Shown here in pieces: positions 17,274-20,396 of a stretch of 64,000 nt of DNA. Source of the stretch: Qipengyuania qiaonensis (GTDB lineage: Bacteria > Pseudomonadota > Alphaproteobacteria > Sphingomonadales > Sphingomonadaceae); contig NZ_JAIGNO010000006.1 in the NCBI RefSeq assembly GCF_019711515.1, positions 62,001 to 126,000 of the forward strand, read 5' to 3'. The notes below the pieces were generated by a model that was given only the letters and a program-made list of their open reading frames with translations, was not told where the DNA came from and searched no databases. The position numbers and the translations under genes were made by a program. Each line of letters opens with the position of its first letter. Within the stretch, counting starts at the first letter, position 1.

Positions 17274-18947
17274 ATGGCCGCCCAGTACGCTTTCGTCATG
17301 AAAGACATGACCAAGACTTTCCCCGGTGCGCAGAAACCGGTGCTCAGCAATATTAACCTGCAATTCTACCAGGGCGCGAAGATCGGCATCGTCGGGCCCA
17401 ACGGTGCGGGCAAGTCGACGCTGATCAAGATCATGGCCGGTATCGACACCGATTTCACCGGCGAGGCATGGCCGGGCGAGAACATCACGGTCGGCTATCT
17501 GGAACAGGAGCCCGAGCTCGACGACAGCAAGACGGTGCTGGAAAACGTCAGGGACGGCGCGCGCGAAACGGCCGACATGGTCGAACGCTTCAACCAGATC
17601 GGCATGGAAATGGGCGAAGAGGATGCCGATTTCGATGCGCTCAGCACCGAGATGTCGGAACTGCAGGACCGGATCGACGCGGTCGATGGCTGGACGCTCG
17701 ACAATCAGCTCGAAGTGGCGATGGAAGCGCTCCGCTGCCCGCCGGGCGACTGGCCCGTCACCGATCTGTCGGGCGGCGAGAAGCGCCGCGTCGCCCTCAC
17801 CCGCCTGCTGATCCAGAAGCCGTCCATTCTGCTCCTCGACGAACCGACCAACCACCTCGATGCCGAAAGCGTCCAGTGGCTCGAAAACCATCTCAAGGAA
17901 TATGCCGGTGCGGTGCTGATGATCACCCACGATCGCTACTTCCTCGACAATGTCGTCGGCTGGATTCTCGAACTCGACCGCGGCAGCTACTATCCGTACG
18001 AAGGCAATTACTCGACCTATCTGGAAAAGAAGGCCAAGCGGCTCGAACAGGAAAGCCGCGAGGAAAGCGGTCGGTCGAAAGCGCTGTCGCGCGAACTCGA
18101 ATGGATCCGGCAGACCCCGGCCGCGCGCCAGACCAAGTCGAAGGCACGTATTCGCAAGTTCGAGGAACTGCAGGAAAGCCAGCAGGATCGCAAACCCGGC
18201 AAGGCGCAGATCGTCATCCAGGTGCCCGAACGCCTCGGCGGCAAGGTCATCGAAGCCAAGGGCATCTCCAAGGCCTATGGCGACAAGCTGCTGTTCGAAG
18301 ACCTGTCCTTCATGCTGCCCCCCGGCGGCATCGTCGGCGTGATCGGGCCCAACGGCGCGGGTAAGTCGACGCTGTTCAAGATCCTGACCGGCAAGGAAAC
18401 CCCCGACAGCGGGACGGTGGAAATCGGCTCGACCGTCCATCTCGGCTATGTCGACCAGAGCCGCGACCATCTGAACCCCAAGAACAACGTCTGGGAGGAA
18501 ATCTCCGACGGGCTCGATTACATGAAGGTCAACGGCCACGACACCAGCACGCGCGCCTATGTCGGCGCGTTCAACTTCAAGGGCCCCGACCAGCAGAAGA
18601 ATGTCGGCAAGCTGTCCGGCGGCGAACGCAACCGCGTGCACATGGCCAAGATGCTGAAAGAAGGCGGCAACGTGCTGCTGCTGGACGAACCGACCAACGA
18701 TCTCGACGTGGAAACTTTGGGCGCGCTCGAGGAGGCGATCGAAAACTTCGCCGGCTGCGCCGTGGTCATCTCGCACGACCGCTTCTTCCTCGACCGCCTG
18801 GCCACGCACATCCTGGCCTTCGAAGGCGACAGCCACGTCGAATGGTTCGAGGGCAACTTCGAAGCTTACGAGGAAGACAAGCGGCGGCGCCTAGGCGATG
18901 CGGCGGATCGGCCGACGCGGTTGGCGTATAAGAAGCTGACTAGGTAG
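17274..18947 (+). CDS. ettA: Energy-dependent translational throttle protein EttA (ABC-F)
   Basis: This encodes 557 residues, matching EttA (about 555). Two ABC ATPase domains are present: Walker A GPNGAGKSTLIKIMAG with signature LSGGEKRRVAL, and GPNGAGKSTLFKILTG with signature LSGGERNRVHM. LLDEPTNHLD and LLDEPTNDLD are the Walker B regions, and the linker with the P-site tRNA interaction motif lies between. There are no membrane segments. EttA binds the ribosomal E site and restricts entry into the elongation cycle when ADP is high. The ATG at 17274 gives the conserved MAAQYAFVMKDMTKTFPG start; the open frame upstream is not coding. Confidence 0.95.
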   Translation: MAAQYAFVMKDMTKTFPGAQKPVLSNINLQFYQGAKIGIVGPNGAGKSTLIKIMAGIDTDFTGEAWPGENITVGYLEQEPELDDSKTVLENVRDGARETADMVERFNQIGMEMGEEDADFDALSTEMSELQDRIDAVDGWTLDNQLEVAMEALRCPPGDWPVTDLSGGEKRRVALTRLLIQKPSILLLDEPTNHLDAESVQWLENHLKEYAGAVLMITHDRYFLDNVVGWILELDRGSYYPYEGNYSTYLEKKAKRLEQESREESGRSKALSRELEWIRQTPAARQTKSKARIRKFEELQESQQDRKPGKAQIVIQVPERLGGKVIEAKGISKAYGDKLLFEDLSFMLPPGGIVGVIGPNGAGKSTLFKILTGKETPDSGTVEIGSTVHLGYVDQSRDHLNPKNNVWEEISDGLDYMKVNGHDTSTRAYVGAFNFKGPDQQKNVGKLSGGERNRVHMAKMLKEGGNVLLLDEPTNDLDVETLGALEEAIENFAGCAVVISHDRFFLDRLATHILAFEGDSHVEWFEGNFEAYEEDKRRRLGDAADRPTRLAYKKLTR

Positions 18948-18984
18948 TGTAGGCAGCCGACGCAGATCCGTTTATCTTCCCCTT

Positions 18985-19012
18985 CGTCATTCCCGCGAAG
19001 GCGGGAACCCAG
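18985..19012. repeat. REP-like palindromic repeat, copy A
   Basis: A 28-base unit contains a perfect 7-bp hairpin, TTCCCGC-GAAG-GCGGGAA. It is an inverted copy of the core of the 19016-19063 repeat (25 of 28 positions match). Together they form a head-to-head pair, as bacterial interspersed mosaic elements do. The stretch from 18948 to 19207 holds no gene, only these repeats. Confidence 0.8.
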
Positions 19013-19015
19013 TGT

Positions 19016-19063
19016 GGCCGTGGTACTTGGTTGCTCTGGGTCCCCGCCTGCGCGGGGATGACG
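19016..19063. repeat. Left 48-bp inverted repeat flanking the GIY-YIG gene
   Basis: The reverse complement of these 48 bases matches 19555-19602 at 45 positions. The inner part contains a hairpin, TCCCCGC-CTGC-GCGGGGA. The pair encloses a single gene, which is the layout of a small mobile unit. Confidence 0.85.
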
Positions 19064-19117
19064 CTGGTGCGCGGGAATGACGTTGGGGCGCAGGGACGAC
19101 GTTGGGGAGTGGGGATG
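19061..19117. repeat. Three imperfect 19-bp tandem repeats
   Basis: Units begin at 19061, 19080 and 19099, each opening ACG(C/T)TGG and ending GGGAATG, GGGACG or GGGGATG. They appear to be decayed partial copies of the GGGAATGACG edge of the neighbouring palindromic repeat. Confidence 0.65.
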
Positions 19118-19207
19118 GCGGGAACGGGTAAGGCCGTTCCGCACAAATTGAGACCGCAATGGTGTGAAGGGGCTGACGGGCCGGCCGTCCGTGCCTAGGC
19201 TTTGTGG

Positions 19208-19519
19208 ATGTCGTTCGAACGTATTCCCTGCGTCTACATCCTCGCCTCGCAGCGAAATGGAACGCTCTACATCGGCGTGACGTCCGATTTGGTCGCCCGC
19301 ATCCAGCAGCACCGCTCCGGGGCCGCCGATGGCTTCACGAAGAAGCATGGCGTCAAGCGGCTCGTCTGGTTCGAAGTGCATGAGGAAATGGAGCCGGCCA
19401 TCCTGCGCGAGAAGCGGCTCAAGAAGTGGAATCGCGCGTGGAAGCTGCGGCTGATCGAGGAGGCCAATCCGCAATGGCGCGACCTGGCGGAGGATTTCGG
19501 GTTCGAACCGCTTGGGTGA
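19208..19519 (+). CDS. Single-domain GIY-YIG nuclease family protein
   Basis: This encodes 103 residues covering just the GIY-YIG fold: CVYILASQRNGTLYIGVT holds the two tyrosine motifs, ARIQQHRSG the catalytic Arg/His region, and E (EVHEEMEPAILREKRLK) the metal-binding Glu helix. There is no DNA-binding extension, as in the UPF0213/YhbQ-like group, whose biological role is poorly known. The ATG at 19208 is chosen; a TTG two codons earlier is also possible. The gene is enclosed by 48-bp inverted repeats at 19016-19063 and 19555-19602. A role in spreading or cutting those repeats is possible but not shown. Confidence 0.85.
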   Translation: MSFERIPCVYILASQRNGTLYIGVTSDLVARIQQHRSGAADGFTKKHGVKRLVWFEVHEEMEPAILREKRLKKWNRAWKLRLIEEANPQWRDLAEDFGFEPLG

Positions 19520-19554
19520 GCGCTCCTCCCCTTCCCGTCATTCTCGCGTAGCAG

Positions 19555-19602
19555 CGTCATCCCCGCGTAGGCGGGGACCCAGAGCAACCAAGCACCTCGG
19601 CC
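19555..19602. repeat. Right 48-bp inverted repeat flanking the GIY-YIG gene
   Basis: This is the inverted partner of 19016-19063 (45/48). It starts CGTCATCCCCGCG and contains the hairpin CCCCGC-GTAG-GCGGGG with an A/T extension. A shorter partial copy (GTCATTCTCGCG) precedes it at 19537-19548. Confidence 0.85.
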
Positions 19603-19697
19603 ATTGAGCCGTCCAATACCCGACCCACCACTTTCCTACACGCACGTCGCGCGTTAGCCTTCGCCGGTTATTTGATCGCCGTGAATCCCACTCCCAT

Positions 19698-19732
19698 AAA
19701 GCCCCGCCAGCCGTGCGGGGCTTTGGCGTTTT
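19698..19732 (+). terminator. Rho-independent terminator-like hairpin in a gene-free stretch
   Basis: The stem AAAGCCCCGC pairs perfectly with GCGGGGCTTT (19715-19724) and is followed by a short T-rich run. No gene end lies directly upstream: the 19603-19958 stretch is otherwise empty to the eye. The hairpin may end an unrecognised small RNA or act on transcripts from the GIY-YIG unit. Confidence 0.6.
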
Positions 19733-19958
19733 GGGGCACCTATAAGCGCTCTGGCGAAAGGGCCCCCCGAATGTGTTTCATCAACTTGCATTCTCTGCAA
19801 CCGACCGATCCTCGCCGAACCGTGTCGCTGTCCGCTCCGCTTCGTTTGACATACCCCACCTCGGTTTGACAGACTCGGATGCAACGCGCCCGGTCCGCGG
19901 GCGCATTCCCATGCGGTGCCTCCCTCGCGCCGCGAACACGAAATCGACAAGGATATCC

Positions 19959-20396
19959 ATGACCACTCCCAGCAGCGGCGACACCGTCACCATCGATTAC
20001 GTCCTCAAGCGCACCGACGGCCAGGAAGTCGGCAACACCCAGCAGGCCGGGCCGCAGGACATCACCATCGGCAGCGGGCAGATCTTCCCGCAGATCGAGG
20101 AAGCGCTCACGGGCATGAGCGTCGGCGACGAGCAGACCGTGGCCATCCCATGCGACAAGGCCTTCGGTCCGCGCAACGAGCAGATGATCATCGACATTCC
20201 GCGCGCGAATCTGCCGCCCGAGCCCGCCCCGCAGCCGGGCATGGCCTTGCAGGCGCAGTCGCCAGACGGCCAGCCGATGACGCTCTACGTCCTCGAAGTC
20301 GGCGAAGAAACGATCAAGGCGGATGGCAATCACCCGCTTGCCGGCGAGGACATAACTTTCGACATCACCCTGCGCGAGATCAAGCAGGCGGCCTGA
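19959..20396 (+). CDS. FKBP-type peptidyl-prolyl isomerase (SlyD-like)
   Basis: This encodes 145 residues. The FKBP half-barrel is DTVTIDYVLKRTDGQEVGNT, the flap region IGSGQIFPQIEEALTGMSVGD, and an inserted IF (chaperone) domain follows around residues 65-120 (EQMIIDIPRANLPPEPAPQP). This is the SlyD/FkpB arrangement, here without the metal-binding His-rich tail. It is cytoplasmic and assists folding by proline isomerisation. The ATG at 19959 is chosen because AAGG is seven bases upstream; the frame is open further 5' but non-coding in character. Confidence 0.92.
   Translation: MTTPSSGDTVTIDYVLKRTDGQEVGNTQQAGPQDITIGSGQIFPQIEEALTGMSVGDEQTVAIPCDKAFGPRNEQMIIDIPRANLPPEPAPQPGMALQAQSPDGQPMTLYVLEVGEETIKADGNHPLAGEDITFDITLREIKQAA

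Follow-up and report, generated by a model that had tools for sequence, protein, structure and literature searches.

A lone GIY-YIG nuclease gene in DNA of Qipengyuania qiaonensis is enclosed by inverted, CGTC-tagged palindromes, and the unit is probably an Ssn-type nuclease gene surrounded by copies of the palindrome that its product recognises, a CGTC-1 (dRS3-like) REP. Coordinates refer to the window, the whole 64,000-nucleotide stretch that was analysed. The gene takes, beside CGTC-tagged palindromes, the place that RAYT genes take beside theirs, an association that is well supported by the flanking palindromes, the matching of gene clade and palindrome, the dispersed gene-less dimers, and the presence or absence of other such units at orthologous sites elsewhere. 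For the partner enzyme that CGTC REPs have seemed to lack, a lone GIY-YIG gene with clade-linked palindromes makes a strong candidate. The unit and its neighbours comprise the following features.

17274–18947, + strand: EttA (ABC-F) gene, upstream neighbour outside the unit (NCBIfam NF008775, 938.8 bits against a cut-off of 599)
18985–19063, no strand: inverted (REPIN-like) dimer of copies A and B, tags outward, folding as one hairpin
18985–19013, + strand: palindrome copy A, with CGTC tag, hairpin and CCA tail (7-bp stem, −8.4 kcal/mol)
19015–19082, no strand: left arm of the long inverted repeat (62/68 against 19536–19603)
19035–19063, − strand: palindrome copy B, CGTC-tagged (−9.2 kcal/mol)
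19049–19105, + strand: three tandem 19-nt partial copies of the palindrome end (100%, 89% and 79% identity to the first)
19208–19519, + strand: stand-alone Ssn-like GIY-YIG nuclease gene, 103 aa (ATG at 19208, stop at 19517–19519)
19536–19603, no strand: right arm of the long inverted repeat (62/68 against 19015–19082)
19555–19583, + strand: palindrome copy C, CGTC-tagged, 3′ of the gene (pattern match and fold)
19959–20396, + strand: FKBP-type peptidyl-prolyl isomerase gene, downstream neighbour outside the unit (Pfam FKBP_C, E 3.6e-14)

The initial annotation had reported a 48-bp inverted repeat around a single 103-residue GIY-YIG gene. Positions 19016–19063 are indeed identical to the reverse complement of 19555–19602 at 45 of 48 positions, the match extends to 62 of 68, and the one gene between the arms encodes a GIY-YIG domain (Pfam PF01541, E 6e-17). 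The 6–7 bp hairpin claimed for each repeat is likewise there, as a predicted 7-bp stem with a 4-nt loop in each of the full copies A, B and C. The anatomy needs one amendment: the inverted arms are real, but the left arm contains just half of the 79-nt dimer (18985–19063), which is predicted to fold into a single long hairpin (−31.6 kcal/mol, z −8.7). The extra partial copies take the form of the 19-nt half-copies at 19049–19105 and of a truncated copy, recognised by eye, with which the right arm starts (19536–19554). From copy C the match runs on to 19603, through sequence that repeats the spacer next to copy B in inverted form; because the right arm thus carries the palindrome together with part of the dimer spacer, inverted, its layout suggests that both sides of the unit descend from one element. 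The CGTC tags of the inner pair (19035–19063 and 19555–19583) point toward the gene, opposite to the majority of the named relatives described below, in which the tag of the nearest copy points outward at 49 and inward at 20 loci upstream, and outward at 43 and inward at 23 downstream. A chance origin of the inverted match and hairpins was rejected, since both shuffle controls fell far below the observed values: the best inverted 48-nt match was 35, against 45 observed, in 100 mononucleotide shuffles of 18946–19645 (any 48-nt inverted window), and the 27-nt hairpin pattern matched three times in the window and never in 100 dinucleotide-preserving shuffles.

The window protein is identical to a gonococcal homologue at 62 of 91 residues (68%). 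In an alignment of 111 relatives, Y21, R31, H35, L52, E68, K72 and N87 are 100% conserved and Y10 is 97% conserved. Its closest characterised relative we take to be the Neisseria ssDNA nuclease Ssn. As described in 2025, this neisserial GIY-YIG nuclease reportedly cuts a repeated sequence (NTS) as ssDNA and affects natural transformation in the meningococcus, and the family is said to include many homologues with sequences of their own. The gonococcal homologue, presumably the published Ssn itself, lies among clustered CGTC-1/dRS3-type repeats. The window gene resembles the Ssn family in encoding a small stand-alone protein, homologous to the neisserial one, and in having a candidate cognate repeat nearby; it differs in its host and in the presence of only five repeat copies in its genome, and the evidence on mobile units and on a palindrome for each clade of window-type genes comes from sequence only. 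By extension from Ssn, the window protein may also recognise and cut ssDNA.

Among proteins of solved structure, the best sequence match was PDB 1zg2, the UPF0213 protein BH0048 (26 bits). A phage or defence gene was considered and rejected, as the best PADLOC match (E 0.00099) and the best PHROG match (E 0.0023) each covered the protein in part; weak matches to it were found in 2 of 50,697 phage records. Identity with RAYT (TnpA-REP) was also rejected: the window enzyme has no HUH or tyrosine transposase domain, GIY-YIG being the sole Pfam family found in it, with no NCBIfam transposase match.

All three palindrome copies in the window answer the description of CGTC-1 REPs, with the tag, a short stem, a 4-nt loop and a CCA tail, and an inverted dimer, a form in which these REPs occur, lies at 18985–19063; the stems of 7 bp are one base pair shorter than the 8 bp given for CGTC-1 family 1 in the available text of PMC3733652. 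In that text, this 2013 survey by Di Nocera reports CGTC REPs from five phyla, mostly from alphaproteobacteria, includes Neisseria dRS3 among them and equates it with CGTC-1 (PMC3733652). CGTC repeats are described there as making inverted dimers like GTAG repeats, and both REP superfamilies as mainly intergenic and 3′ of coding regions (PMC3733652). According to the same text, CGTC REPs ‘apparently lack a dedicated transposase’: no tyrosine transposase gene is flanked by CGTC repeats, and there are a few fortuitous associations with other transposases (Di Nocera 2013, PMC3733652). The window unit differs from these REPs, for which the available text reports no transposase partner, in enclosing a GIY-YIG gene; the term ‘GIY-YIG’ is absent from that text, in which ‘nuclease’ starts a word once. 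No link between GIY-YIG and REP-type palindromes appeared in the titles or abstract openings of the best-ranked literature matches. The likeness to RAYTs and GTAG REPs, as far as the available text describes them, lies in the lone nuclease gene flanked by its palindromes, in gene-less inverted dimers elsewhere, as in REPINs, and in the patchy distribution, whereas the window unit has a GIY-YIG hydrolase and a CGTC tag in place of the HUH/tyrosine transposase and GTAG tag of RAYTs. Both flanking cognate-type palindromes and dispersed gene-less copies were found here, a matter of analogy and not of membership; judging by the sequences, the analogy holds for anatomy, specificity and distribution.

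Matches to the GIY-YIG gene occur in 37 of 60 genomes of the genus, with zero to nine per genome and 110 in total, of which 93 loci were analysed. Inverted repeats across the gene (score of at least 15, within 400 bp) flank 79 of these 93 genes, compared with 1 of 92 shifted windows and 214 of 1835 mixed-locus pairs. The repeat falls below this score at the remaining 14 loci, including that of C28, a paralogue in the window genome. Direct matches are also common (35 of the 93 genus loci and 37 of the 80 named loci described below), because dimers put copies in both orientations.

The 3.39-Mb genome that contains the window has four GIY-YIG paralogues, each with its own palindrome type nearby as judged by eye, and pattern searches place each of these palindromes beside its gene; for C28, both copies were found on one side only. 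The window palindrome has five copies genome-wide at up to 3 mismatches, three of them at the window gene (reversed control, 0), and with so few copies the system looks quiet in this genome. A further dimer was recognised elsewhere in the genome by reading and appeared less regular in a second comparison. At the C27 paralogue the palindrome is of the CCTTCGACAAGCTCAGG type (L004, L010–L024) and has 15 copies in the genome, two of which bracket the gene while ten form five inverted pairs about 16–38 bp apart.

Correspondence between gene and palindrome was examined at 173 loci, of which 141 had an inverted repeat scoring at least 15; 111 of those had a perfect hairpin and were tested, which leaves imperfect hairpins such as the C27 type mostly outside these comparisons. 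At the similarity cut-off used, the 111 palindromes fell into 13 clusters, the examples mostly carrying a CGTC tag. Protein identity correlated with palindrome similarity (Mantel r 0.55; maximum 0.12 in 1000 permutations). The permutation keeps the shared ancestry of close relatives, to which restriction to pairs below 80% identity is a partial answer: within the genus, r was then 0.45 (maximum 0.16 in 2000 permutations). The nearest protein below 80% identity had the same palindrome at 64 of the 111 loci; in 200 permutations the mean count was 17 and the highest 30. In the genus, a common palindrome was found in 1 of 65 paralogue pairs from the same genome, where genome assignment covers loci up to L179, and in 106 of 216 pairs from different genomes with proteins at least 65% identical. 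At identities of 0.45–0.65 the rates were alike within genomes (1/59) and between them (36/1183), which indicates that the palindrome follows the gene and not the genome. Gene clades, on this comparison, carry their own palindromes.

The association also holds outside the genus. Eighty named loci were taken, the best-matching of 482 confirmed stretches, and so represent the closest homologues rather than a random sample; their records are labelled Alpha-, Beta- and Gammaproteobacteria, Planctomycetota, Chloroflexi, Leptolyngbya, Desulfoluna, Elusimicrobia and others, and since many of them are metagenome bins, single labels may be wrong. Of the 80 loci, 77 have the palindrome of the window type (family 1, up to 3 mismatches) no more than 400 bp from the gene, 58 of them on both sides, 11 upstream only and 8 downstream only. 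Its density is 3.32 per kb near the gene and 0.077 per kb at distances above 800 bp. The three misses (L042, L070 and L089) carry a different palindrome with the core CCCGGG-CTTGA-CCCGGG. Alignment detected inverted repeats at 62 of the 80 loci and at 1 of 59 far windows; we rely on the far windows as the control, as the cross-locus one (43 of 80 at a score of at least 15) is not clean for the named loci, which share one palindrome. The initial annotation had asked whether such genes are found just as often away from the repeats: close homologues are adjacent to them at 77 of 80 loci, but the repeats also occur where there is no close gene.

With the C27 paralogue as query, 30 loci were found in 150 genomes of the phylum, and these were divided at 45% identity, a cut-off chosen after the list had been seen. 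Inverted repeats flank 8 of the 10 relatives at 49% identity or more, a set that counts C27 itself and includes other genera, compared with 1 of the 20 loci at 44% or less. These distant loci, one of whose proteins was confirmed as GIY-YIG by Pfam, are mostly UPF0213/YhbQ-like by sight. The single exception, L279, is 43% identical to the window protein (E 1.8e-18) and 34% to the C27 query. The UPF0213/YhbQ type shares the Pfam domain and a similar size with the window protein and differs in that 19 of the 20 distant loci have no flanking inverted repeats, whereas the window gene has them. Judging by these loci, the GIY-YIG domain alone does not bring palindromes.

Co-occurrence of repeat and gene, which the initial annotation had also raised, proved to be an enrichment and not a strict dependence. 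The family-1 pattern is present in 23 of 60 genus genomes: in all five with an assigned family-1 gene (G000, G006, G032, G035 and G039, assigned by us from the flanks) and in 18 of the 55 others (Fisher p 0.006). Near-variant genes (L143, L145, L148 and L152, in G032, G007, G023 and G005) were there counted as another type; counting them in gives 8/8 against 15/52. In the phylum sample, which like the genus sample includes the window genome, the pattern occurs in 7 of 8 genomes with a gene match at E ≤1e-34 and in 31 of 142 others (p 0.0003); this cut-off was picked after the list had been seen, and E 1e-36 gives 5/5 against 33/145. The median number of palindrome copies in that sample is 20 with a close gene and 0 without. 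Strict dependence is contradicted on one side by G159, which has a gene match (E 6.8e-35) and no copy of the family-1 pattern, and on the other by G040, G096 and G112, which have 26, 178 and 68 copies, respectively, without a close gene. In such genomes the repeats either persist after the gene is gone or depend on a different gene. The largest number of copies, 628, was seen in G148, where the gene is matched in two pieces, one with an internal stop (C87:1569–1839).

Comparison of the window site covered relatives whose stretch held both flanks. The gap between ettA and the FKBP gene (18948–19958) is variable, and in relatives it is occupied by other DNA, about 24 to 1400 bp long. In G032 an orthologous gene (82%) lies 3′ of ettA and is preceded by a dimer; G018, the nearest relative by FKBP gene (94%), has unrelated DNA at the site, and in G021 and G035 the gap is near-bare. 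No exact empty site could be defined for the window unit, because relatives that lack it have variable intergenic DNA.

Presence and absence were seen at two other sites. At one, dimers of a different palindrome enclose a unit that is present in G023 and G043, whereas G024 (flanks 94–97% identical to G023), G007 and G041 have other intergenic DNA in its place. The other is the interval from fnrL to a response-regulator gene on Sphingobium plasmids, where seven records have the gene and four Tom records and S. herbicidovorans do not; eight records were aligned, four with the gene and four without. Gene-free TomTYG64 has a single symmetrical palindrome whose sequence is that of the outer halves of both flanking copies, and TomTYG74, also gene-free, has a solo palindrome of this type with two base changes. 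TomTYG72 and TomTYG65 have neither the gene nor that palindrome, and other short inverted repeats occur there. The alleles are compatible in sequence with insertion, with deletion between 8-nt repeats within the palindromes, or with homing. Neither target duplication nor exact insertion or movement was seen at any of the three sites compared. In the TomTYG73 copy, the nuclease gene is broken by a one-base gap (L259:2500–2960).

The proposal of the initial annotation that a GIY-YIG enzyme is the counterpart of a RAYT is upheld as an association, through the 77 of 80 adjacent loci and the clade matching, but not as movement of the unit by the nuclease, and the enzyme-driven mobility of the unit is something that we infer. 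In the mechanism considered here, the enzyme would recognise the hairpin in single-stranded DNA, on the lagging strand or in incoming DNA, and nick it; the nick or break would then be repaired with another copy as template, which would duplicate the palindrome and, in some cases, the gene enclosed by two of them. The gene-bearing unit would be the autonomous form and the gene-less dimers the dependent form, as is thought for RAYTs and REPINs. GIY-YIG enzymes hydrolyse DNA without a covalent intermediate, so the unit would spread in a homing-like or repair-driven way and not by true transposition. We consider it most likely that the hairpin is nicked in ssDNA and that spread follows when repair draws on another copy. 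A wider reading, which we put forward tentatively as a fair minority possibility, is that CGTC REPs and clade-matched GIY-YIG nucleases form a second and enzymatically unrelated solution to the RAYT/REPIN arrangement, with many parallel, orthogonal lineages of nuclease and palindrome that are copied by repair and cross between distant groups together.

Two alternatives keep the nuclease as the specific partner of the palindromes, and we consider each of them rather unlikely. Cutting at palindromes could serve the host by tuning DNA uptake, recombination or repair, the flanks being a dense, host-maintained repeat; the gonococcal homologue embedded in clustered dRS3-type repeats and the role in meningococcal natural transformation that Ssn is said to have both speak for this, but it sits poorly with the patchy presence in the genus (37 of 60 genomes, zero to nine matches each), with different palindromes at four paralogues of one genome, and with broken gene copies and presence/absence between close relatives, which look like mobile passengers. 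The other, somewhat doubtful, alternative is a homing-like gene: the nuclease would cut solo palindromes and the gene would be copied in by repair, making the palindrome a homing site and not a transposon end. GIY-YIG homing endonucleases have the same catalytic fold and lie in or beside a candidate recognition site, whereas the window unit has neither an intron nor an inserted host gene and has full palindromes on both sides. The solo palindromes of gene-free TomTYG64 and, with two base changes, TomTYG74 are what homing would predict at the fnrL site, but they are also expected from deletion between the 8-nt direct repeats ACCCCGGG, and in the filled allele both flanks retain complete palindromes, so that the site survives, unlike in classical homing. 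The best PHROG match is a GIY-YIG homing endonuclease, although weak and partial (E 0.0023).

The remaining alternatives deny the nuclease an active part. A true transposon with palindromic ends, moved in trans by a RAYT or IS transposase with the GIY-YIG gene as cargo, would be in keeping with the inverted dimers that CGTC repeats, like GTAG repeats, form in the available text of PMC3733652; it is improbable given that the same text finds no tyrosine transposase gene flanked by CGTC repeats (Di Nocera 2013, PMC3733652), and that the match of clade and palindrome suggests the specific partner to be the GIY-YIG protein. Least probable is passive accumulation, in which palindromes pile up in short intergenic space or as terminators and the gene is a bystander. 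REPs are mainly intergenic and 3′ of coding regions in the available text (PMC3733652) and the ettA–FKBP gap is a variable region in relatives, but far windows of the same loci have inverted repeats in only 1 of 59 and 1 of 92 cases, palindrome type tracks the gene clade and not the genome, and only 1 of 20 distant small GIY-YIG genes has inverted repeats.

Related arrangements were seen on other replicons. A Sinorhizobium meliloti GIY-YIG gene (L230:1780–3000) is bracketed by dimers of the CTCATCCCTGTG palindrome, pieces of which recur on pSym replicons at up to 27 places per listed record; these dimers are possibly the known RIME-type elements. In the comparison with Rhizobium plasmids, the query’s own record alone covered most of the stretch. 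Some records labelled as plasmids look chromosomal, among them gonococcal ones of 2.17 Mb and an Aeromonas one of 4.9 Mb (L228 = NZ_CP119140.1, H1, H2, H6), and counts of the gene on plasmids may be inflated by such records of chromosome size. Within the genus, G032 has nine matches to this gene family, and genomes of this kind would be natural libraries of nucleases and candidate hairpin targets.
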